In this document: positions 32,856 to 45,908 of the stretch, one piece after another | Position numbering within the stretch: the first letter of the stretch is position 1 | Layout: every line of letters starts with the position of its first letter | Assembly: GCA_021817145.1 (NCBI GenBank) | Contig: JAKAVV010000005.1 | Location: forward strand, 96,341-160,340 | Direction of reading: 5' to 3' | DNA from: a bacterium | GTDB taxonomy: Bacteria; Vulcanimicrobiota; JABDET01 | DNA: 64,000 bases | The notes under the pieces: generated by a model | The model's database searches: none | What the model saw: only the letters and a program-made list of their open reading frames with translations | Told to the model about the DNA's origin: nothing | Translations under genes and position numbers: made by a program

Positions 32856-33524
32856 ATGATAGGAACACTGGAATTTTTAAAAGAAAATCAGCAGTTAAAA
32901 CTCGAGGGAGAGAATCATTCTTTTATCACAACGATTGAATCTGTTAAACCCAACTTTTTTACGGTAAAGGGGGACCATCAAATTATAGAACATCTTTCTG
33001 TTCATATCGGCGCTAAAATGAAGGGGATTTTCATCCATGAAGATTCGATTTACTCTTTTGAAACAAAAGTTGTTCGAAAAGAAATAGCCCCTCCTCGATT
33101 GTCTCTTTCCTGGCCCAAAGAGGTTGTTGAAGATAAAGTTAAATGCTATCAAAGAGCAGGTTTTACCGGTGTGGAGGGGTATCTTCCTTTTCGATATGAA
33201 CCTGTCAAAAAGGGACAAGATACGATTGAATTTACAAAACAAGGAGTGGCTACCTGGATTGGCGGAGATGAGCTTAACATGATTTCTATTTTTGAGATCC
33301 CAAAAGGGTCGCTTCTTGCCCTTGAGCTGCAGCAGCCTGTCTCTCCTGTCCCTTTTCGGTTTTTCGGAAAAGTTCATAAAATTAAGCAGCATGGTTCTCT
33401 TTATCATATCAGACTTCTTTTCGAAGCCATTCGAGAAAAAGATCGGGATTTGATTTTAAAGTACTGTTTGCAAAAGCAAGCCCAACTGAATCGCACAGGG
33501 CTTTTAAAGCCTTCTGAGTCATGA
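32856..33524 (+). CDS. YcgR/PilZ-like flagellar protein, degenerate c-di-GMP motifs
   Basis: A 222-residue protein with a YcgR-type N-terminal beta domain followed by a PilZ-like second half. The place of the PilZ RxxxR motif reads CYQRAGFTG, and no DxSxxG follows, so c-di-GMP binding is doubtful. It begins immediately after the flhA stop and overlaps the next gene by four bases. It is the first of three tandem relatives; assignment is by architecture and the intact third copy. It may bind the motor or partner with the intact copy without the nucleotide. Confidence 0.65.
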   Translation: MIGTLEFLKENQQLKLEGENHSFITTIESVKPNFFTVKGDHQIIEHLSVHIGAKMKGIFIHEDSIYSFETKVVRKEIAPPRLSLSWPKEVVEDKVKCYQRAGFTGVEGYLPFRYEPVKKGQDTIEFTKQGVATWIGGDELNMISIFEIPKGSLLALELQQPVSPVPFRFFGKVHKIKQHGSLYHIRLLFEAIREKDRDLILKYCLQKQAQLNRTGLLKPSES

Positions 33525-34267
33525 TTTTTGGACTTTTTTCCAAGAAGAAAAAGCTTCTAACGCCTCTTGAGTCAGGAGAAAAGTTCGAACTGGAAATTCC
33601 TGGAGAGAAGCAGAGTCGTTTTCTTTATGGCAGAGTTGTAAAAGTGAGCAAGAAGAAGAATATTTTTGTTAATTTTACATCAAAAGATAAGGGAGAGAAT
33701 TTGGTTGTTGGAACAGAAGGAAAGATGACAGCATTGAAATCTGAACAGAAAATTCAATTTCAAACTAGATTTTTGCATCAGAATGAGGAGATTTTCATTT
33801 TTTCCCCTCCTGAGACCACTACCGCAGTAAAAATTTATTCTGCAACCGATCGTTTTTCTTATTCTATCTCTCTTCCTGTTCACTATCGAGCCATGGCAAG
33901 TCCTCATACCCAAAAAGGGGAAGCTATTCAGTTTGCATGGGACAGCCTCGTTTTTTCAGCGAATCTCCCTATACCAATTGGCACTTTGTTAAACCTGGAA
34001 ATCGCGCTGCCGCATTTAGATAGAGCGATTCAAATAAAAGAAAAAGTCACTGATTCCTTAAAATCGCAAAAAGATCTTAAAAAATATGATACTCGGATTT
34101 CTTTAGAGGAACTGGGAACAAGCGATAAAGAAGAGATTTTATGGTTTGTTTTGTTAAAAAGCAGTACTGACCAGCCTGCTGCAGTGAAAGGTGACAGAAA
34201 AGAGATTAGTCCTCTGGCAGACAAGGGGGCTGGAGGCCGTCTGCCGCCTTCGAAGGAGGGGCATTGA
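33521..34267 (+). CDS. YcgR/PilZ-like flagellar protein, degenerate second copy
   Basis: A 248-residue relative of the gene at 34267: both begin with a hydrophobic F-G-L-F segment followed by a Lys cluster and a PLESGEKFELEI/WLEPGQELELEL block. The PilZ half has DRFSYSISLPVHYRAM where the RRxxxR motif should be, and no DxSxxG. The last 40 residues are a hydrophilic tail. The ATG overlaps the upstream stop, and the stop overlaps the start region of the intact copy, so the three are translated together. Confidence 0.65.
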   Translation: MIFGLFSKKKKLLTPLESGEKFELEIPGEKQSRFLYGRVVKVSKKKNIFVNFTSKDKGENLVVGTEGKMTALKSEQKIQFQTRFLHQNEEIFIFSPPETTTAVKIYSATDRFSYSISLPVHYRAMASPHTQKGEAIQFAWDSLVFSANLPIPIGTLLNLEIALPHLDRAIQIKEKVTDSLKSQKDLKKYDTRISLEELGTSDKEEILWFVLLKSSTDQPAAVKGDRKEISPLADKGAGGRLPPSKEGH

Positions 34268-34953
34268 TGTTTTTTGGACTATTTGGGAAAAAAGAGGAAC
34301 CCTTCTCTAAGTGGTTAGAACCTGGACAGGAGTTGGAGCTCGAATTATCAGAAAATAATGAGAAACGAGTTTATCTGACAGATCTCATTTCAATTGGCAG
34401 CAAAAGTTTGGCACTTTCTTTTCCTTTAGGAGAAGAGAATAGAGGTGTATTTGCTCCAGGAAAAGGGGTTGATGTCCATGCTGAAATTGGTGGAAAAGTC
34501 GCTTCCTTCCATGTTTTTATTTTATCTTCTGACTCAAAAGGATTGAATCTATCTCTCCCTGAAAAGATTGAGTGGAAAGAAAAAACAGAATCCTTGCAGC
34601 AGAGAAGAAATTTTGTGCGTTTTGAAACCGCTCTTTCTGTTTTTTATGCTCCTTTTCAAGGGGTTAAAAGAGAGGGCACGACTCTTGACATCAGCGGGAA
34701 CGGGCTCAGCATGGTGAACGAGCTGGAGCTTAAATCAGGGACTATTTTACCTATCGCTCTAAAACTTCTTGATAAAGAAATAAAGTGCAAGGCAAAAGTG
34801 ATTCGGTCAAAACCTTATTCAAAGTCTATAGTCGGGCAGCAGAGATATGAAACCGCTGTCAGTTTTGTGGATATCGAAACAAAAGATCAAGACAGCATTG
34901 TGAAATACATTTTTGACAAACAGAGAGAATTAAGAAGAAGAGGGATTATCTAA
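34267..34953 (+). CDS. ycgR: YcgR-like PilZ-domain flagellar brake protein, intact motifs
   Basis: A c-di-GMP-responsive protein of the YcgR type, which in other bacteria binds the rotor/stator and slows the motor when c-di-GMP rises. The N-terminal YcgR domain (residues 1-110) is followed by PilZ with both nucleotide-binding motifs: QQRRNFVRFE (RRxxxR) and LDISGNGL (DxSxxG). Length 228 from the ATG at 34267, seven bases after AAGGAGGGG; TTG 34264 is the alternative. Its stop shares a base with the fliA ATG (TAATG). Confidence 0.85.
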   Translation: MFFGLFGKKEEPFSKWLEPGQELELELSENNEKRVYLTDLISIGSKSLALSFPLGEENRGVFAPGKGVDVHAEIGGKVASFHVFILSSDSKGLNLSLPEKIEWKEKTESLQQRRNFVRFETALSVFYAPFQGVKREGTTLDISGNGLSMVNELELKSGTILPIALKLLDKEIKCKAKVIRSKPYSKSIVGQQRYETAVSFVDIETKDQDSIVKYIFDKQRELRRRGII

Positions 34954-35764: not shown

Positions 35765-36076
35765 GTGTCAACACGTGCAGTGGATCTTCAAGCTTTATTA
35801 TTTCGGCTTCAAGATGTTCAGCAAATCCAAACGACGAACCAGCAGCAGCCTCAAGTGGCTCAATCTCAGTTTACTCAGATGTTTGTGAATCAAAGCGATG
35901 TTCGAAAAGAACAGGTACAGAATTCTAACCACACAGAAGAAACAAAAATTCGAGATAAAACAGGGGGAAGAGGGGGGCAGAGAAGGCAGAGACGCCAGCA
36001 GAAACCTTCTTCTTCAGAACAGTCCGCTCCTCTAGCTTCTCCAGGATCTCCCCATAGAATTGATATTCGGGTCTGA
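35765..36076 (+). CDS. Small glutamine-rich hydrophilic protein of the flagellar cluster
   Basis: A 103-residue, strongly hydrophilic protein. The N-terminus is rich in Gln (TTNQQQPQVAQSQFTQMF) and the second half is Arg/Gly/Ser-rich (GGRGGQRRQRRQQKP). It resembles in length, composition and position the small unnamed proteins that follow sigD in clostridial flagellar operons. Function unknown. GTG start behind AAAGGAGGTG; its stop shares one base with the next ATG. Confidence 0.7.
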   Translation: MSTRAVDLQALLFRLQDVQQIQTTNQQQPQVAQSQFTQMFVNQSDVRKEQVQNSNHTEETKIRDKTGGRGGQRRQRRQQKPSSSEQSAPLASPGSPHRIDIRV

Positions 36077-37158
36077 TGATACAACTGAATGCTCTCCCAA
36101 TTATTGCTCAAGATAATCTTCAAATTCAGGAGATTTTGGCTCCTTCTTCCATTCTAAAGGTTTCAGTTGTCGGGTTGGCGGGTGACAAAGCTATTTTAGC
36201 TATTGGTGGAAAAGAGGTTTTAGCAGATTCCAGCAAAGTTCCATTAACAGCAGGGGAGGTTCTAACAGTTGAAGTTCAAAAAAGCGGGGATCAGATAGAA
36301 TTGAAGATTCTTTCTTCAAGTTTCCCTAAATCCGAATCGAAGCCAGCTTCTCTCTCTGAACCCCCTCAAATTATAGGCGCTGAACTTCAAAGTCATTCTC
36401 CTTCTCTTCAAGCAGAAACTTTCTTGCAATCTCTAGGGCTGCCTTTAGATCCTGAACTGCTAAATCCTTTAAAATTATTTTTTCAATCTATCCTACAGCA
36501 GCAAATTCCTCAGGAGAACCTCCCTTTTAAAGTGCTGCAGGCAGGTGATAATCCTGCTGCTCTTGCAGAAGTTTTGCCTCAAGTTGCAGATGCGCTGGCA
36601 TCAACTCCTGAATCAAAACTAGTATCGCTGGCAGAAAAACTTTCCTCTGCCAATGGGAAAATCTCTTTTGAAGAGATTCAAAATTTTGCCGCTTCAATTC
36701 AGCATTCTGCAAGCGCAGTTTCATCTTTTTCTCAATCTCATCAAATTGGAAATGCTGTCCAGGCTAATCAAAATCCTTCTTCTATTTTTATTCCCATTCC
36801 CTTTACCCTGGATGGTAAAAGTTGGATTGGGTACTTGGAAATAGAATCTGATGATTTAGAACAATTTGGGAAGAAATTGCAAGAAGGGAGTTTTACTCTA
36901 AAATTTACGGTAACCATGAAAAACCTCGGATCGGTTCAAGTAAAAGTTGCAGCAGTAAGAAAAAAAATGGAAACTATTTTTTTTGTGAGAGGAGGAGAAG
37001 AAAAACTCTTCATCGAAAATCATATTGATAAATTGTTGGATCGTCTGAGATCCTTACCTTTTGCCTCTGAAAAGGTAAGGGTTAAAGACACAGGGGAGCA
37101 GAAAAAAGGGGTCAATTCTTTTTTATTCAAGAAAACCCCGGTAGATGTCAAGGTTTGA
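36076..37158 (+). CDS. FliK-like protein (YlqG type) paired with an FlhB-tail protein
   Basis: A 360-residue protein with an N-terminal beta-rich part (residues 1-90), a Ser/Gln-rich middle, and a C-terminal domain (about 240-345, beginning FIPIPFTLDGKSWIGYLEIE) that resembles the FliK C-terminal export-switch domain. In Firmicutes the same pair, a FliK-like protein followed by a truncated FlhB homologue (ylqG-ylqH), occurs. It may modulate export switching. The ATG overlaps the previous stop by one base. Confidence 0.65.
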   Translation: MIQLNALPIIAQDNLQIQEILAPSSILKVSVVGLAGDKAILAIGGKEVLADSSKVPLTAGEVLTVEVQKSGDQIELKILSSSFPKSESKPASLSEPPQIIGAELQSHSPSLQAETFLQSLGLPLDPELLNPLKLFFQSILQQQIPQENLPFKVLQAGDNPAALAEVLPQVADALASTPESKLVSLAEKLSSANGKISFEEIQNFAASIQHSASAVSSFSQSHQIGNAVQANQNPSSIFIPIPFTLDGKSWIGYLEIESDDLEQFGKKLQEGSFTLKFTVTMKNLGSVQVKVAAVRKKMETIFFVRGGEEKLFIENHIDKLLDRLRSLPFASEKVRVKDTGEQKKGVNSFLFKKTPVDVKV

Positions 37159-37194: not shown

Positions 37195-37482
37195 GTGAAA
37201 ACGACGACAAAACAGAGAAAAGCGGCAGCATTGGGATATGATGCGGAAAAAGACCTGGCTCCGCGCGTTTTAGCTTCGGGTAAAGGTAGAGTCTCTGAAA
37301 AGATTCTTGAAATTGCTAAAGAACACAATATTCCCATTCATGAAGATCCAGATCTTGTCGATCTTTTAGCCTCTCTTAATATTGGTGAGACGATTCCTCC
37401 TGAATTATATAAACTTGTTGCTGAAATCATCACTTATCTGTATGAAATTGATGGAGATTTTAAGATGGTAAAGAAGAAGTGA
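37195..37482 (+). CDS. FlhB C-terminal-domain homologue (FlhX/YlqH type)
   Basis: A 95-residue protein equivalent to the part of FlhB after the cleavage site: PRVLASGKGRVSEKILEIAK, a ...HEDPDLVDLLASLNIGETIP block, and LYKLVAEIITYLYEI, with no membrane helices and no NP-x-H site. In other bacteria such proteins can substitute for the FlhB C-terminal fragment. This is of interest because FlhB at 29031 carries an altered cleavage motif. GTG start at 37195. Confidence 0.88.
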   Translation: MKTTTKQRKAAALGYDAEKDLAPRVLASGKGRVSEKILEIAKEHNIPIHEDPDLVDLLASLNIGETIPPELYKLVAEIITYLYEIDGDFKMVKKK

Positions 37483-37496
37483 GAAAGGAGGAGGGT

Positions 37497-38402
37497 ATGG
37501 GGACACCAGCAGAAAATAAGATTTTGCTTCTTTTAAAACAGGGGAAAAGAGAAGATGAAAATGAAGCGAATCGCCTTTTAAAAATTTTAAGGGGACGAAC
37601 AAAAACTTCTCCATTTACTCCTTTGCCAAAGCCTGAGGTAGAGCCTCCTGCTCCAGCAGAAGTTCTTTCTCTTCCAGGACTTTCCGCTCTCCACCTCTTT
37701 TCGTACCTAAAAGAAGAAACAAGAAATAGCCTGGATGTTTATTTTCAGAATAAACAAGATGGATGGCTCCGTTATTTTTTAGCGATTCAACCTCTTGCCG
37801 CAACAGAAGTTGCAGGGCTTCCTCATCTGTCGATCAATCAAGAGATGAAAGAGTATCAGGACAAGCTTCGCTCTTTTCTACACAGACTTTTAATTCAGTG
37901 GAGATTGAAAAAGCCTATTGTTCCCGAGCAGCTTAAGCTGCCGGAATTGGATGAGATGTTGATTCATTTAATCGGGAAATTGAAGATTTTAGTTCAGCAG
38001 GGACGATTCCAGCAGATCAGCACGTTGGATTCTTGCGATAAAAGATTAACGTTTTTATGTATCTTGAAACCTGAGGGTTTTAATGCCCCCTCTAAATTCC
38101 TTCAGAAAAGCGAAGGAACTCTTCTAGCTCATCTTGCTTTTCTTGTGGCTGTGATGGCTCAGGAGGTTGTTATCTTAAAACCAGGGCAGCTGAAAGAAGC
38201 GATTGCTATAGGGGAATCCTTGCAGAAAATCAGAGAAAATCTAACGGTTTTCGTTCATCGAATGGCTGTGCGCTCTCAGTTTGGGCAGGTTGAGCCTGAC
38301 GGGAAGTTTCAATTAGCAGGAGTCATTGAAAGATTTTTCGAGTCGCTGAATTTTCTTTTTAAATCCGAAGAAAAATTTGATGCCAGTGGCAAAGGGGGAT
38401 AA
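37497..38402 (+). CDS. Uncharacterised helical protein of the flagellar cluster
   Basis: Not recognised. About 301 residues, mostly predicted helical and soluble, with a Pro-rich linker at about 45-65. Its first 18 residues (MGTPAENKILLLLKQGKR) resemble the start of the DUF11 protein two genes downstream (MGIASANRLLQLLKRGDR): M-G, N, L, L-L-K, G and R are shared. The frame opens at GTG 37479, but AAAGGAGGA at 37484-37492 points to ATG 37497. It ends in a one-base overlap region with the ATPase gene (TAATG). Confidence 0.75.
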   Translation: MGTPAENKILLLLKQGKREDENEANRLLKILRGRTKTSPFTPLPKPEVEPPAPAEVLSLPGLSALHLFSYLKEETRNSLDVYFQNKQDGWLRYFLAIQPLAATEVAGLPHLSINQEMKEYQDKLRSFLHRLLIQWRLKKPIVPEQLKLPELDEMLIHLIGKLKILVQQGRFQQISTLDSCDKRLTFLCILKPEGFNAPSKFLQKSEGTLLAHLAFLVAVMAQEVVILKPGQLKEAIAIGESLQKIRENLTVFVHRMAVRSQFGQVEPDGKFQLAGVIERFFESLNFLFKSEEKFDASGKGG

Positions 38403-39364
38403 TGATGGATTATTTTGAAGTTTTGGGTCTCCAAAAAGAGCCATTTATGGATACAGCCGATCCTTATTTTTTTCATGCGGCTCCTGATCGGGAAGAGATT
38501 TTGACTCATTTGGAAGTGGCGGTTCGAGTGGGAAGAGGACTTGCCTGTGTGTTTGGAGAGGTTGGGAGCGGAAAAACAACATTGGCTCAAACATTAGAAC
38601 AAAATCTGCTTCAAGATGAGAGTTTTGTTTTGAGGAAGGTTTTTGACCCATCCTTTTCTTCTGAGTACTTATTTTTAACACAGATAGCTATGGTTTTTGA
38701 AATAGAAAGAACTCCTGGCACCATTCTTGAGCTTAAAAATTCGATTAAAAATTATTTATTCAAGAAAGGGGTTGAAGAGGGAAAAACAATTCTTCTGATT
38801 ATTGATGAGGCTCAAAAATTAACTCTTCAAAATCTGGAAACTCTGCGCATTTTATTGAATTATCAAGCCCCTAATAGAAAACTGCTGAATATCATTTTAT
38901 TTGGGCAGCCTGAATTGATGGAACAGATGCGTCAGATGCCTAACCTGACAGATCGCATTACTTCACTCTTCTTCCTTTCTCCCCTGGATCGAATTGGAAC
39001 TCATGACCTGATTCGATTTAGACTGAAACAGGCCGGACTGCCTGATGACAGGGAGCTTTTTAGTGAAGAAGCAAAGGATCGAATTTATGATTACTGCAAA
39101 GGAAATGTTCGCAAAGTTGTGAACCTGTGTCATGACCTAATTGAAGAGCTGGTCATTCGAGAAAGAAACGTGGTAACTTTGGAGATGGTCGAAAAAGCCA
39201 TTGGCAAGAAAGAACAAATTCAGAAGCTGTTCCAAAAAGAGAGTGTGGGTGGAAATGGTAAAATGTCTGATTCGCAAAATGGATCAAGTATTTCAAGGAT
39301 TCCACAGAAATCTGTAAAGATTTCAGGATTTATCGAAAAACTGCTGGATAAAATTTGGAACTAA
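38402..39364 (+). CDS. ExeA/TniB-like AAA+ ATPase
   Basis: A 320-residue ATPase of the ExeA/GspA type. The N-terminus YFEVLGLQKEPFMDTADPYFF is characteristic (in two parts: YFEVLGLQKEPF, DTADPYFF); Walker A is GEVGSGKTT (about residues 50-58), Walker B LLIIDEAQ (about 135-142), and sensor-like FGQPEL follows. There is no transmembrane helix and no peptidoglycan-binding domain, both found in ExeA. It lies between the helical protein and the DUF11 protein and overlaps its upstream neighbour, so it probably works on them. Exact role unknown. Confidence 0.85.
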   Translation: MMDYFEVLGLQKEPFMDTADPYFFHAAPDREEILTHLEVAVRVGRGLACVFGEVGSGKTTLAQTLEQNLLQDESFVLRKVFDPSFSSEYLFLTQIAMVFEIERTPGTILELKNSIKNYLFKKGVEEGKTILLIIDEAQKLTLQNLETLRILLNYQAPNRKLLNIILFGQPELMEQMRQMPNLTDRITSLFFLSPLDRIGTHDLIRFRLKQAGLPDDRELFSEEAKDRIYDYCKGNVRKVVNLCHDLIEELVIRERNVVTLEMVEKAIGKKEQIQKLFQKESVGGNGKMSDSQNGSSISRIPQKSVKISGFIEKLLDKIWN

Positions 39365-39386
39365 TTTGATTTTAAAGGAGGGGAAT

Positions 39387-42300
39387 ATGGGTATTGCGAG
39401 CGCAAATCGTTTGTTGCAGTTATTAAAACGTGGGGACAGGACAGAAGTTGCCCCTGCGGAAAGAATTGCCGATCCGCCTTCAAATAACGGAAAATCTCTT
39501 GGGAATCCGAATGATGATCTGAAGAAACGCGCGAGTGAAATAAATCCGTCCCCACTCGAATTGAAAGATCTTGAGCGAGAAAATCTTTACCCTCTTGAAA
39601 CTGCTTATGAGGGAGAAGTTAAACCTGGAGGATTAATTCGACTTTATGCCTTTTTAAAAAACATGACGAATGAGAATTGGGATGAAGTTTTTCTGCGGCT
39701 AGAAAATTCTCAGGAACTTCATTATGTTCTAGGAACTACTTTTTGCGATGGGGAAAATATACCGGATCAAGGAGGCACTTCTCCTGTTTTATCCAGTGAA
39801 GGTGTTTCCTTGAAAAAATTTCCACCTGATGGGAAGAGAAAAATTGCTGTCCAGATGGAAATTGACTCTGCTGCCCCTGAAAATTCTTGTATTGAAACGT
39901 CCTTTTTTCTTAAAAAAAGGGGGGAAGCCTTATTTAAGCAGCAGGGGAGTCTGTTATTAAAAGGGGATTTACAATTTTCCAAATCGGATTGCTCTCTTTT
40001 CTCTGAAGCCAAGGAAACCATTAAACCTGGCGAAGTTATCTCTTGCGCAGTTACTCTTTTTAACCCAGGGCAGGTTGAAATAACCAGGGTTTCTGTTCTT
40101 TTAAAATCTTCTGCGCATCTCGCTTATATTCCGGGAAGCGCTGTGATTGACGACAGACCGATTCTAGACCCAGTTTCAGGAGAGCTTTTGTTCTCTCAAC
40201 AAGGGCTTTATCTTGCTTCTCTTCGTCCAAAAGAAAAAAGAACTTTAAAATTTCAAGTAAAAGCGGATTTTCCTCTTGACTGTGGAGAAATTGTTTCAAT
40301 TTCAGGAGGAATTCAATCTGATCAAAGCAGTCTCCTGGAGTTGGATCCCCTTAAATTTATCGTCCAGTCCTCTCCCGAATTTTCAACAGGAAAGAACACA
40401 TTGATTCGATCTCTTGTTGATAAAGAAGTTAATGCCACTGAGCTTATTCCTTATGTTATTCAGTATCAGAATTCTGGAGATGCAAATGCGTATGGAACTG
40501 TCATCCGAATCGAATCTTCCCCTTCTTTGGAGCTTGTGCCAGGTTCTCTGCGTATTGAAGAAAATCAAGTTTCTCAAGAAACTCTTCTTTTTTCTAAAGG
40601 AATTTCTTTGGGAACAATAAAACCAGGGCAAATTGGAAAGATCGCTTTTCAGATGAGAATTAAAACCCCTATTGAGAATGGAACAGATGCTGCTGTTAAA
40701 GGGATACTCTCTTTTCTAAAAGGGGACGATTTGGAAATTCCGCAAGTAACCCATAAGATTACAGCAAAACCATTTTTTGCCGATCCTAAACTAAACTGGA
40801 TTGAAGTCCATCCCAAAGGTGATGTGAAACCAGGCGATCTTTTAACTTATACTTTATGTTTGAGAAACTCTGGAGAAGCGCTGCATGCTTATCAAACCAG
40901 GGTTCGCTGTCTGATTCCTCCTGAATTGACTTGTATTCCAGGAACTCTTTCTATCAATGGAGTTAAATCTAAAAAAGAAGTTTCCACCCTTATTTCAGAA
41001 GAGGGGCTTGAACTTGGACAGGTCAAATTTGGAGAAAATCAGGAGATCAGTTTTCAAGCTTCTGTGAAATCCCCTCTAGACAATGGGATAGTTTTAGAAG
41101 TTGGCGGTGAAATTAAGGCGCAGGATATTGATGTTTATCGGATTCTCCCTTCAAAAAGCGAGGTTCATGCAAAGCCTGACTTCTCTCAGGGGATCAATAA
41201 TTTTGTAGATGTTCGGCCTGGGAAAGAAGCTTCTCCTGGAGAAGTGCTGACTTACACGATTCACTGCAAAAATGCGGGGCTTGTTCATGCAAAGAATATT
41301 GCGATTTTCGCCGATCTTCCTGAACATACTCAATATATTCCAAATAAAATGAAAAGAAATGGAATTCCTGTTCCTGACGAAGAGAAAAATTCCCCGCTCT
41401 TTATGCCTGAAGGATTTAATTTGGGCCCCTTAAAGGTAGGGGATCAGGAATTTATCACTTTTCAAGTAAAAGTAAACTCTCCTCTTGAAGTTGGAACAAT
41501 CCTTCGTGGGAAAGTTCGGATTATCCCTGACAAATTAGCCACCTATATTTTAGAAATCCCCCCTGTTTCGGTCTGTTCCTCTCCTGATTTTTCCAATCCA
41601 GATACGAATTTCATGGAAGCATTCCCTGACACCCCTATTCCTCCAGGACAAATGGTAACGTATGTCCTTTATTATCGAAATGTTGGAAACGATGATGCAA
41701 AAGGAATTATTTTGAAGGCAGGGTGTCCTCTAAAAGCTAACTACGTGAAAGGCTCCACCCGTTTAAATGGAATTCCTGTCCCAGATCTCCAGGGGACAAG
41801 TCCTTTATTTGGGAAAGGTTTAAGGGTTGAGGATGTAAAATGGAATCGTTCGGGAAACATTTCTTATCAGGTTGTGGCTCTTGAAAATATTGAACCTGGC
41901 GCCATTCTCGAAAATTCTGGAAGCATTGAATGGAATGGAAGAAGTTTTAAAACGAATGCGGTTAAGAATTCTATTATTTCATTGGTGGATTTTTCAAATA
42001 AAAAGTACAACCATTTGTCAGTTTCTGTTCCTGGAGATGTGGCGCCTGGGATGTTATTGACTTACACTTTCAGATTTAAAAATGAGGGGACTGTTTCAGC
42101 CAATGGAGTAACAGCGAAAATGCATCTTTCCCCCCATTTGCAGTATGTTTCTAATTCAACGATTGTGAATGGGCAGCCAGCCAGCGATCAGTTTGGAAAA
42201 AGTCCTGTTTTGCAGAACGATGGGCTTGCTGTTGGAAACGTTTATCCTGGACAAGCTGAAGAAATCAGTTTAAGATGCGTTGTTGAAACCCCTCTTGATC

Positions 42301-42791
42301 CAGGAATAGAGATTTTTGCCTCAGGGGAAATTATCTTGGAAAACAATCAATCTTTTGCTATTGAGAAAATAAAAAATATTGTGGCTTCTTCCCCTTCTTT
42401 TCGAGATAAAAGTTTTAATCATATCGAAGCTGTTTATCCTCCTAAAATGCATGGAAATCCTGTTGCATTTATTGTTAATTTCAAAAATACGGGTAATTCC
42501 AATGCTTACCATATTGTTTTTCGAGGAAATATTCCTAAAGGGTGGAGATACGTTAAAAACTCAACCTGTTTCAATGGAAGAGGGGTAAAGGATGAACAGG
42601 ATGAATCTCCTCTGTTTTTAAACTCGGGATTGACTGCTGCTCGAATCGAAGCGGATGAAGAAGGAACTTTCTCTTTCCAGGCTTATTTACCTCAAGGGAT
42701 ATCTTTAGGTAAAGAAGGGGATAAAGAGTTTCCAAGAATTACCGTTGAATCGCAAAAAATGGATCCTTATGAAATCTTCCCTAAAGGGTAA
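39387..42791 (+). CDS. Large eight-repeat DUF11-type protein without signal peptide
   Basis: A protein of 1134 residues made of about eight consecutive repeats of 125-135 residues after an N-terminal segment of about 60. Each repeat runs: PG-(E/D)-x-(L/V)-(T/S)-Y, NxG, YxxxS, a NG-x-P element, SPLF and L-x-(V/I)-G, the pattern of DUF11 conserved-repeat proteins usually found on cell surfaces. There is no signal peptide or membrane anchor; the N-terminus MGIASANRLLQLLKRGDR resembles that of the protein at 37497. ATG 39387 follows AAAGGAGGGG; the frame opens at 39366. Export through the flagellar system is possible but unproven. Confidence 0.85.
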   Translation: MGIASANRLLQLLKRGDRTEVAPAERIADPPSNNGKSLGNPNDDLKKRASEINPSPLELKDLERENLYPLETAYEGEVKPGGLIRLYAFLKNMTNENWDEVFLRLENSQELHYVLGTTFCDGENIPDQGGTSPVLSSEGVSLKKFPPDGKRKIAVQMEIDSAAPENSCIETSFFLKKRGEALFKQQGSLLLKGDLQFSKSDCSLFSEAKETIKPGEVISCAVTLFNPGQVEITRVSVLLKSSAHLAYIPGSAVIDDRPILDPVSGELLFSQQGLYLASLRPKEKRTLKFQVKADFPLDCGEIVSISGGIQSDQSSLLELDPLKFIVQSSPEFSTGKNTLIRSLVDKEVNATELIPYVIQYQNSGDANAYGTVIRIESSPSLELVPGSLRIEENQVSQETLLFSKGISLGTIKPGQIGKIAFQMRIKTPIENGTDAAVKGILSFLKGDDLEIPQVTHKITAKPFFADPKLNWIEVHPKGDVKPGDLLTYTLCLRNSGEALHAYQTRVRCLIPPELTCIPGTLSINGVKSKKEVSTLISEEGLELGQVKFGENQEISFQASVKSPLDNGIVLEVGGEIKAQDIDVYRILPSKSEVHAKPDFSQGINNFVDVRPGKEASPGEVLTYTIHCKNAGLVHAKNIAIFADLPEHTQYIPNKMKRNGIPVPDEEKNSPLFMPEGFNLGPLKVGDQEFITFQVKVNSPLEVGTILRGKVRIIPDKLATYILEIPPVSVCSSPDFSNPDTNFMEAFPDTPIPPGQMVTYVLYYRNVGNDDAKGIILKAGCPLKANYVKGSTRLNGIPVPDLQGTSPLFGKGLRVEDVKWNRSGNISYQVVALENIEPGAILENSGSIEWNGRSFKTNAVKNSIISLVDFSNKKYNHLSVSVPGDVAPGMLLTYTFRFKNEGTVSANGVTAKMHLSPHLQYVSNSTIVNGQPASDQFGKSPVLQNDGLAVGNVYPGQAEEISLRCVVETPLDPGIEIFASGEIILENNQSFAIEKIKNIVASSPSFRDKSFNHIEAVYPPKMHGNPVAFIVNFKNTGNSNAYHIVFRGNIPKGWRYVKNSTCFNGRGVKDEQDESPLFLNSGLTAARIEADEEGTFSFQAYLPQGISLGKEGDKEFPRITVESQKMDPYEIFPKG

Positions 42792-43185: not shown

Positions 43186-43590
43186 TTAGCTTGCTGAAAC
43201 AGCGCTCTTTTTCTGGGTTTGAAGTTTTCGGTAAGCTTCCTGCCAGGTGTCTCTTAAATCTTTAACCAGTGGAATAATCTCATCGACAGGTTCCACTTTT
43301 TTGTGAAGATTCGCTTCTTTTAATCGCGCTAACATATAGTCGTAGAGAAGGAGAAGATTTTTCCCACCCTCCCAAACTTTTACATTCAATGCCCCTGCTA
43401 ATTGAAGAATTAGCATCTGCGCTTTTTTTAAAGCATCATGAGATTTTTCGATCTCTTTTTTTTGGAGTCTTTCTTTCGAAGTGTACAACAGTTTTAATAG
43501 AAGATCATAAGCTACCACCACAAGGGCTTCAGGACTGGATGATTCAACCTGAATCATTTGATACTTTTGAGCCGGATGAGTAGGAGGCAT
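43186..43590 (-). CDS. fliS: Flagellin export chaperone FliS
   Basis: Binds unassembled flagellin in the cytoplasm and delivers it to FlhA. The N-terminal YQMIQVESSSPEALVVVAYD block (KYQ...T/S...S/P..L) and the helical bundle continuing AGALNVKVWEGGKNLLLLYDYM (in parts: GALNVKVWEGG, LLLYDYMLARL) are diagnostic. 134 residues. It starts two bases after fliD; the pair implies flagellin genes elsewhere in the genome. Confidence 0.92.
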   Translation of the reverse strand: MPPTHPAQKYQMIQVESSSPEALVVVAYDLLLKLLYTSKERLQKKEIEKSHDALKKAQMLILQLAGALNVKVWEGGKNLLLLYDYMLARLKEANLHKKVEPVDEIIPLVKDLRDTWQEAYRKLQTQKKSAVSAS

Positions 43591-43592
43591 TT

Positions 43593-45908
43593 TTAGCCGC
43601 CGAGCAGGCTAGAGGCTGTTCCTTGCTGCGCTAGACTGGATGCTGTAGAGCCTCCGCCCGATCCACTGAAGAGGTTGCTTGCAGCCGTATTTAACATTCC
43701 TAGCTGCTGAGATAAAAAACTGGATTCTCCTTGAAGCTGGGACAGGATGGTTTCCATATTGGCAAATTCCTGGTTTAACTGTTGGGTTTGGGCAGTAGCG
43801 CTGTTCTGGATTTGGGTGATTTGCTGGTTTAAGGAGTTCACTTCACTGGTATTCCCTGAAACAAGAGAAGGGAGGCCGTACTGGTTGCTGGTCAGCCCTT
43901 GTAAAACATTCTGGACATTTTGCGCAAGCTGAGTTGCAAGATTAGAGACAGCTTGAGGGTTTGAACTCATTGCATTTTGGAACTGAGTGGAATCAAAACT
44001 AAAGGAGTTAGCTGCTCCTTGTGTTTGGGTAAAACTTAATCCAAGCTGTTCAAGGGATTGAAAGGGCCCATTGATATTTGTTAAAGGATTAAGAAGAGAG
44101 CTTTCCACGTTGAACTGCGCATTTTCAATAGTAAAATTTCCGAAAAGAACCCCTGCTGCAGTGGTTTGAGTTGGCGCTGTGCCAGGGGTTGTATTATTCT
44201 GGAATGTTGGAGGGGCTGTGGCAGTGTACAGATCGCTTTCAAATTGATTTAAAGCTGTAACAACACTGTTAAAATCATTTGCTGCTGATTGGGAATTATT
44301 GCTGATGGTTAATGTTGAAGTTCCTGTTCCCGCAAGATTTAAAGTTACCCCTGTGATGGCATTGGTTACTGTGTTCGAATTATTGTAAAGGGTTGACCCG
44401 CCATTCACTGTGAGTTCAGATTGTTTCCCAATAGTTTGCGCTGCTCCTAGCAGGTCTGTGGCAGCTAGAAAGTTACCTGTTCCATCAGAAAGACTGATTG
44501 CAGTATTTCCCGAACTTTGATTGCTTAGAGAGAGGGAATCTTGGTTTTGGTTATACGTCGCTGTAACCCCTGCGCCTGAGTTGTTGATTTCGCTGATAAT
44601 GCTTGCCAGGGTATCGCTTGAAGAAACATTCAGGCTGTTTCCATTGATGGTAAAGGTTCCAGTGGAAGGCACAGCAGGTGTCCCTGTTCCAGGATTGAAA
44701 TTTGCCACACTGGCTCCTGTTACATTGGTTCCAGAAGTCGCTGGAGAAGTTGTATCAGGAGCTGCGCGATTTTCAAATTGGCTGCCATGAGGTTCTGCCG
44801 TAATGGTCATACTTCCACTTAATCCCGCATCATAAGCTTGATAAGTTGTATCCCCTGCAGTGATGTTTCGAATGTAAACCAGATAACCAGCCGCCCCAGA
44901 GGTTGGGGTTGTCACAGTAATTCCAGTGGCTCCAGAAATGGTTGCCTCAGGGCTGGCTGACGTTAAATATCCCTGGGCATTGTACCCTAAAATTTCCACG
45001 CCATAAGTATCTGCTGAATTTAATCCCCCTGCTGCAGCAGTCAATGTAGGAGCAGTGGAAGGAGCAGTCAAAACAGTTGAAGCCTGAGATAAAACCGCAT
45101 TGGGGTTGACCCCTCCTAAATGAGTAGAACTGGTAATGGTATAATCCCCTGATCCATTGCTTCCAGAAACCCCTGTTGTTAAATTGGCGATTTGCAGAAA
45201 GTTGCTTGTATCAGAGGAAGAACCAACCCCTATTGGGTTTCCATCTGATGCTGTTAACGTTAATTTGTCATTATTTAAACTGGCAGTAACCCCTATTGCT
45301 GAGCTGTTAATCGTAGAGATAATACTATCAATTGAACTGCTGGCAGCATTAACGTTAATCGTGGCTGAGTTGCCGTCATGGGTCAAGGTAAACGTGCCGC
45401 TGGTTGGAGTGGTTGGAAATCCAGCATATTGGAGTTGAATATTGGGATCCACAAATCTTCCTAAAACATTGGAAAGGGTTTCATTTGCCGCGCTGTTTGG
45501 ACCTGTAACAATCCCTTGAGAAGCTGAAGAAATGCTTCCTTGAGAAGAAACAGATGTAGGACTTGCCAGTTGAGTCACATCTATATTGTAGGAACCAGGG
45601 ACTGCTGTTGTATCAGCAGTGGCTGTAAAAACCCCTGTATTGGATGAGCTGGCAGACATTTGCGAAAAAGTGCTGGAATTTAATAGAGGTGAAAGAGCGG
45701 ATAGAATCCCTTGAAGATCTTTTACAAGAGGGGTTATTGCCCCGTTTTGATTGTTTAAAGTGGCAATTTGCGCTTCAAGAGGAGCTTCTTGAGCAGTTGT
45801 TAAACTGACCAGTTCCTGAATAATAGAACTTGTGTTTAAGCCTGAGATTAGCCCTTGGAAATTAATAGGTCCTAATCCGGCTGAGGTGTTGATCCCAGAA
45901 CTGCTCAT
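43593..45908 (-). CDS. fliD: Flagellar filament cap protein FliD
   Basis: Caps the filament and assists flagellin folding. N-terminal INFQGLISGLNTSSIIQELV and coiled-coil LEAQIATLNNQNGAI, and the C-terminal helical block GLPSLVSGNTSEVNSLNQQI (parts: YGLPSLVSG, SLNQQITQIQ), fit FliD. At 771 residues it is longer than most. It contains two flagellin-IN-like domains (about 170-235 and 410-480) and, between them, a Thr/Ala-rich fibronectin-like insert (about 280-373). Ribosome site GGAAGGTG. Probable sigma28 promoter upstream. Confidence 0.93.
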   Translation of the reverse strand: MSSSGINTSAGLGPINFQGLISGLNTSSIIQELVSLTTAQEAPLEAQIATLNNQNGAITPLVKDLQGILSALSPLLNSSTFSQMSASSSNTGVFTATADTTAVPGSYNIDVTQLASPTSVSSQGSISSASQGIVTGPNSAANETLSNVLGRFVDPNIQLQYAGFPTTPTSGTFTLTHDGNSATINVNAASSSIDSIISTINSSAIGVTASLNNDKLTLTASDGNPIGVGSSSDTSNFLQIANLTTGVSGSNGSGDYTITSSTHLGGVNPNAVLSQASTVLTAPSTAPTLTAAAGGLNSADTYGVEILGYNAQGYLTSASPEATISGATGITVTTPTSGAAGYLVYIRNITAGDTTYQAYDAGLSGSMTITAEPHGSQFENRAAPDTTSPATSGTNVTGASVANFNPGTGTPAVPSTGTFTINGNSLNVSSSDTLASIISEINNSGAGVTATYNQNQDSLSLSNQSSGNTAISLSDGTGNFLAATDLLGAAQTIGKQSELTVNGGSTLYNNSNTVTNAITGVTLNLAGTGTSTLTISNNSQSAANDFNSVVTALNQFESDLYTATAPPTFQNNTTPGTAPTQTTAAGVLFGNFTIENAQFNVESSLLNPLTNINGPFQSLEQLGLSFTQTQGAANSFSFDSTQFQNAMSSNPQAVSNLATQLAQNVQNVLQGLTSNQYGLPSLVSGNTSEVNSLNQQITQIQNSATAQTQQLNQEFANMETILSQLQGESSFLSQQLGMLNTAASNLFSGSGGGSTASSLAQQGTASSLLGG

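Follow-up and report, generated by a model that had tools for sequence, protein, structure and literature searches.

The ATPase ExeA/GspA and its partner GspB (ExeB/OutB) are encoded in succession, an ExeA-like ATPase gene being followed by that of a partner with a leucine-rich basic N-terminal helix. Natural fusions of the two (GspAB) are known (PMC9239104); that paper is concerned mainly with the periplasmic HR domain of GspB. Here we describe three adjacent genes, P1, P2 and P3, in a stretch of 64,000 nucleotides (contig JAKAVV010000005.1, positions 96,341 to 160,340; hereafter the window) from a bacterium of the Eremiobacterota. P2 encodes an ExeA-like ATPase, P3 a protein made of DUF11 repeats, and P1 a protein with no Pfam family above cut-off and no NCBIfam family. 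In the literature on the flagellum in connection with ExeA, DUF11, TIGR03015 or Eremiobacterota we found no description of this module, and we found no published account of a docking helix for ExeA/GspA.

Like the ExeA/GspA and GspB pair, the module places partners with a leucine-rich basic N-terminal helix next to an ExeA-like ATPase. P2 differs from GspA/ExeA in having neither a transmembrane (TM) segment nor a peptidoglycan-binding domain, and its neighbours are fliK, flhX, fliS and fliD rather than gspB or type II secretion system (T2SS) genes. P1 and P3 differ from GspB in the lack of an N-terminal or conserved TM helix and of a periplasmic HR domain, and in their flagellar rather than secretin context. 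Outside the phylum, the ATPases nearest to P2 (38-42% identity) belong to T2SS loci of Omnitrophota, and their partners carry a clearly similar motif, e.g. SPEEKLLRLIKGEKK; however, a TM helix and a weak T2SSC match set those partners apart, and their ATPases lack the C-terminal tail of P2. The best NCBIfam match of P2 is the XrtA/PEP-CTERM ATPase family TIGR03015, from which it differs by a score below the cut-off (154.5 bits over residues 4-268, against 324.5) and by the absence of an exosortase context at the locus. The repeats of P3 are clear members of the DUF11/B_ant_repeat families (PF01345, 87.5 bits, cut-off 24.6; TIGR01451, 149.5 bits, E=1.8e-44, cut-off 24), but unlike the usual DUF11 proteins P3 combines the lack of a Sec signal with an ordinary cysteine content, a putative N-terminal docking helix and a place in an ATPase operon.

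Judged by gene order and co-occurrence, the trio is a real and conserved module linked to the flagellum, although the link is not absolute. We consider it moderately probable that the trio represents a GspA/GspB-like module of ATPase and scaffold partners that has been relocated to the flagellum, where it would act on the cytoplasmic side in late assembly.

Conservation of the module and co-occurrence with flagella

The association with flagella was examined in 149 Eremiobacterota genomes by comparing ATPase matches above 300 bits with the presence of FliD, the counts being uncorrected for shared ancestry. Co-occurrence of ATPase and FliD was seen 44 times, and the discordant cases numbered 3 and 11. 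Within f8, the largest family, 40 of the 43 fliD-positive genomes encode the ATPase and none of the 56 fliD-negative ones does (G138, discussed below, set aside); in 35 genomes overall the two genes share a contig, lying 4.3-7.9 kb apart. The window's congener G001 (98% complete) has neither FliD, nor the trio, nor the high-scoring FlhA that the window possesses, and G009 has neither FliD nor the ATPase; genera g1 and g9 each provide a separate contrast. Type IV pili but no flagella are described for the cultured Vulcanimicrobium alpinus (PMC9758169). The earlier proposal of a flagellum-linked module, made from the window alone, thus agrees with both synteny and FliD co-occurrence.

FliD was detected in 55 of the 149 genomes and FHIPEP (FlhA/SctV; one locus is G000:C26:12744-14771) in 138, which suggests that a second, non-flagellar type III export gate is widespread and occurs even in G009. 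The FHIPEP matches of f8 split into two score classes.

Conservation of the module extends to at least five Eremiobacterota families, where the trio or a fused version of it stands beside flagellar genes. In G002, a member of the window's family, the order is PilZ-fliA-fliK-flhX-P1-P2-P3, so that the order within the trio is kept. G004 shows a FliK-like gene, ATPase, P1-like, ATPase, P3-like (1333 residues, with two motif copies) and a helical domain, and G048 has FliK, FlhX, ATPase, P1-like and ATPase genes followed by the gene of a P3-like protein that is broken across two contigs; the second of these holds the protein's far end, with a P1-type helical domain. From the PLAEEIP repeats common to both contig ends we infer that the two halves form one protein. 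G048 (L082:6486-10512) and G004 (L036:8605-11728) have two paralogous ATPases per module, one ahead of each partner.

In families f8 and f16 the ATPase is accompanied by one fused protein, composed of one motif copy, one DUF11 domain and a duplicated helical domain. In profile comparisons its DUF11 domain matches P3 (98.5% probability, E=1.5e-15) and its helical domain matches P1 (97.4%, E=1.6e-11). These modules adjoin fliD, fliS and flaG, often near glycosyltransferase and sugar-biosynthesis-type genes. Fusion goes further in G138 (L218:6607-9270), where ATPase, motif (AEMRLVDVQR), DUF11 domain and helical domain are parts of a single protein of 888 residues, a parallel to the GspAB fusions. 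In the ATPase tree a supported clade (100/98) unites the flagellar modules and also includes one f14 row; G005 and then Omnitrophota are its neighbours, and the GspA-type ATPases stand apart.

Large DUF11 proteins of f8 that resemble P3 were considered as module members and rejected, as they start with MRTLTEVFAPG and lack the motif. Five f8 loci (L092, L093, L096, L100 and L101) encode pairs of DUF11 proteins of about 1100 residues without a Sec signal (MRTLTEVFAPGAPTLPEGLRTLVVSP...), flanked by aminotransferase/trpS-type genes and by mreC/penicillin-binding-type (mre/mrd) cell-shape genes; these pairs apparently constitute a second intracellular DUF11 set.

The N-terminal helix shared by P1 and P3

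The original prediction had noted matching N-termini in P1 and P3, and MGTPAENKILLLLKQGKR and MGIASANRLLQLLKRGDR do both fit the pattern it gave. What the two proteins have in common is an N-terminal helix of the form [KR]-L/I-L-x-L/I-L-[KR], of which P1 carries two copies, the second absent from that first description. Two copies are likewise found in the P1 homologues of G002, G004 and G048, and the motif is present in every homologous partner examined, so that the N-terminal similarity recurs in other families.

A motif profile was built from ten Omnitrophota ATPase-partner motifs only and compared with 1310 control N-termini. The first copy of P1 scored 10.33, a value reached by 0.23% of the controls, and 4.2% of them scored as high as P3; homologues from two further families, namely the P1 and P3 proteins of G004 and the P1 of G048, outscored every control. 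In the reverse profile test all ten Omnitrophota partners ranked in the top 5%. Because a profile from another phylum places the Eremiobacterota partners so high among the controls, the likeness between P1 and P3 goes beyond chance. A degenerate DNA pattern of the motif, run over the whole genome, gave 69 matches against 30 for the reversed control; this pattern lacks the stringency to identify additional carriers, and the three copies in the module were the only ones pursued.

A scan of the genome collection with the ATPase gave a first group consisting of Eremiobacterota and Omnitrophota/TA06 (E below 1e-54), general ExeA-type ATPases following from 1e-39 upward. The Omnitrophota ATPases lie in type II secretion/pilus loci, and the next gene, where the contig continues, encodes a protein that starts with the motif (SPEEKLLRLIKGEKK, TADQKLLKMLEAS), continues with a TM helix and a weak T2SSC match (two of three tested), and is often followed by a secretin-like gene. 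At 38 loci of Proteobacteria and others, the product of the gene that follows the ATPase starts with MSYILDALRKSE or similar. Omnitrophota, GspB-type and Eremiobacterota loci thus agree in that the protein encoded immediately downstream of the ATPase begins with a short leucine-rich basic helix.

Since GspA stands before GspB as the Omnitrophota ATPase stands before its motif-bearing membrane partner, and since the placement after the ATPase is conserved and partners have become fused, the shared N-terminus is most likely a docking helix for P2. A motif kept internally in the ATPase-partner fusion of G138 fits such a helix, and not a cleavable or N-terminal export signal. Of the two recognition partners first proposed for this putative targeting or docking signal, the ATPase is therefore supported by the placement, the profile test and the fusion; the flagellar export apparatus is not, the motif being common to Omnitrophota partners in non-flagellar loci. 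The same ATPase subclass occurs in G005 (L217:6429-8868), followed by a protein that joins the docking motif to an HTH_36/Phage_rep_O DNA-binding domain, which suggests that the helix is portable.

Given that the nearest relatives outside the phylum lie in Omnitrophota loci of T2SS or type IV pilus (T4P) type, and that one secretin is encoded in the window's genome, P2 might be thought to serve a secretin machinery (T2SS or T4P) as GspA does, its flagellar neighbourhood being accidental. We regard this as very improbable: a secretin is present in 135 of the 149 genomes, including G001 and G009, both of which lack the ATPase; the ATPase tracks fliD instead; and P1 and P3 have neither a periplasmic HR domain nor a conserved TM helix.

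Predicted structures, cellular location and role

P2 (320 residues) is an AAA+ ATPase of the ExeA/GspA/TIGR03015-like type, whose sole Pfam domain is an N-terminal AAA_22 (3e-23). Its AlphaFold model, with a predicted local distance difference test score (pLDDT) of 91.4, has its nearest folds among the Orc/Cdc6 and TnsC initiator-type AAA+ ATPases. No TM segment (maximum Kyte-Doolittle hydropathy over 19 residues 1.28) and no peptidoglycan-binding Pfam domain were found in it. P3 has no hydrophobic stretch, the N-terminus included (maximum 1.08). The earlier characterization of P2 as an AAA+ ATPase without membrane or peptidoglycan domains, and of P3 as an eight-repeat DUF11 protein of 1134 residues without a Sec signal, is confirmed by the domain matches and hydropathy values.

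The AlphaFold model of P1 (pLDDT 83.6) consists of two N-terminal helices at the motif copies, which would be the docking helices, a floppy linker and a duplicated beta-helical domain formed by two copies of a strand-plus-helices unit. This fold found no match in the PDB better than E=0.9. The hydropathy maximum of P1 (2.21) falls on a helix inside the folded domain, and the maxima of the f8/f16 partners are mostly 1.2-1.7. P1, P3 and the fused f8 partners gave no T2SSC/GspB match and hence show no periplasmic HR domain.

Omnitrophota and GspB partners have a conserved TM helix that the Eremiobacterota partners lack. Related Eremiobacterota ATPases end in hydrophobic/basic tails, e.g. GFFVRLFSRLAAK, and the Omnitrophota ATPases have no such tail. 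Membrane anchoring would accordingly have shifted from the partner to the ATPase, and the C-terminal helix of P2 may be an inner-membrane tether. MinD has a short hydrophobic/basic membrane-targeting helix at its extreme C-terminus. P2 resembles it in the predicted terminal hydrophobic/basic helix after a linker, but is an AAA+ and not a ParA/MinD ATPase.

The lack of a Sec signal in P3, the fliK/flhX neighbourhood and the general knowledge that DUF11 proteins are mostly found at the surface are consistent with the alternative first put forward, in which the N-termini of P1 and P3 would act as export or targeting signals and the flagellar type III apparatus would secrete P3 to serve as a sheath, surface or adhesion protein. 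Cysteine content does not agree with this. P3 has 13 cysteines in 1134 residues (1.15%; homologues 0.7-1.0%, giving 0.7-1.15% for the whole set), compared with 0.76% for the open reading frames of the window and an average of 0.43% for the fused f8/f16 partners, whereas the axial substrates of the same loci are depleted, at 0.02% for FliD (22 loci) and 0 for FliK (three genomes). Export of P3 alongside the axial proteins is therefore disfavoured on statistical grounds. Moreover, the G138 fusion carries the motif at an internal position, Omnitrophota partners in T2SS/T4P-type loci begin with the same motif, and in the f8/f16 partner a single DUF11 domain precedes the helical one. It thus appears improbable that P3 is secreted as a flagellar coat, and the module looks like a cytoplasmic flagellar accessory.

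In the cytoplasmic scaffold model that we favour, P2 would be an AAA+ ATPase of the cytoplasm, stripped of the TM and peptidoglycan parts of ExeA/GspA and possibly tethered to the inner membrane by its linker and short hydrophobic/basic end helix. P1 and P3 would dock on it through their N-terminal LLxLL(K/R) helices, as placement and fusions indicate, while the P1 body, with its new duplicated beta-helical domain, and the DUF11 immunoglobulin-like rod of P3 would remain in the cytoplasm, as a scaffold at the flagellar base remodelled by ATP. The position beside fliK/flhX and fliD/fliS suggests that this scaffold acts in late assembly, when FliK/FlhX, FliD, FliS and flagellin come into play, a timing read from the gene neighbours only.

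Several observations weigh against this model. G138 has the fusion and lacks both FliD and an FlhA-grade FHIPEP match; G004 has the module and no FliD match; non-flagellar f14 genomes encode a related ATPase whose partner bears the motif; FliD is present and the module ATPase absent in families f9 and f11 and in part of f10; and the co-occurrence statistics ignore shared ancestry. DUF11 domains usually belong to extracellular or surface proteins. The tail of P2 is amphipathic in the window (p=0.011), but significance is limited to the window and G002, and amphipathicity as a family-wide trait was rejected. Finally, a profile trained on proteobacterial GspB is weak on P1 and P3 and negative on f8/f16, whose motifs it misses, in contrast to the positive Omnitrophota profile, and we therefore claim the same role as GspB, not proven homology. 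The N-terminal GspB motif MSxILxALxK likewise follows the ATPase gene.

The related modules of G138 and f14, found without flagella, together with the Sec-less DUF11 proteins of f8 near mre/mrd-type cell-shape genes, could also point to a general cytoplasmic or envelope scaffold, concerned with cell polarity, surface sensing or cell shape and merely co-inherited with flagella in most families. The tight linkage to fliD and the absence of the module from most non-flagellated genomes make this unlikely, though less so than the other alternatives considered.

More tentatively, ExeA-type ATPases may operate by a plug-in mechanism in which a short leucine-rich partner helix suffices for recruitment; evolution would accordingly have attached this helix to GspB-type secretin scaffolds, to flagellar proteins of the DUF11/helical kind and, in G005, even to a DNA-binding protein. 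The outcome in Eremiobacterota would be a new ATP-driven cytoplasmic flagellar scaffold of intracellular DUF11 rods and a fold absent from the PDB. The scaffold model itself, if it holds, would mean that a phylum-specific ATPase accessory has been added to the bacterial flagellum, would place DUF11 rods in the cytoplasm, and would offer a simple rule for ExeA/GspA-type ATPases, namely that the partner is recognised via a portable N-terminal helix.

Gene layout in the window

As first described, three tightly spaced genes follow the gene for an FlhB C-terminal tail (Table 1). Spacing within the trio is near zero, and good ribosome-binding sites precede P1 and P3. The trio sits between fliK-flhX upstream and fliS-fliD downstream on the opposite strand, and FliK-like genes also lie upstream of the module in L037, L036 and L082.

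Table 1. Coordinates of the module and of its flagellar neighbours in the window.
Feature	Position	Strand	Remarks
FliK-like hook-length control gene	36076..37158	+	Flg_hook E=2.2e-5, under family cut-off; conserved neighbour
FlhB C-terminal-domain gene (FlhX type)	37195..37482	+	PF01312 E=1.3e-18; directly upstream of P1
P1	37497-38402	+	start ATG 37497 after AGGAGG (Shine-Dalgarno)
Putative docking motif, P1, copy 1, AENKILLLLKQGKR	37509..37550	+	model helix 5-14
Putative docking motif, P1, copy 2, EANRLLKILRGRTK, residues 23-36	37563..37604	+	model helix 18-34
P2	38402-39364	+	first base overlaps P1 stop by one base
P2 C-terminal hydrophobic/basic helix FIEKLLDKIWN	39329..39361	+	helix 310-319 after disorder 292-308 (model)
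P3	39387-42791	+	start ATG 39387 after AAAGGAGGGG; 1134 residues
Putative docking motif, P3, SANRLLQLLKRGDR	39399..39440	+	same place in G002 P3
Eight DUF11 repeats of P3	39582..42788	+	129-136 residues each; segmentation and alignment
fliS	43186..43590	-	PF02561 3.4e-28
fliD	43593..45908	-	FliD_N and FliD_C; gene used for co-occurrence test

The window also encodes FlhA, FlhB and FliR together with the export ATPase, a hook/rod protein of the flagellum (FlgE family) and an RNA polymerase sigma factor (Sigma70 r2-r3-r4 type). Three PilZ/YcgR-like genes stand in a row (32856-34953) between flhA and the gene for this sigma factor, the first two so divergent that Pfam gives only traces.

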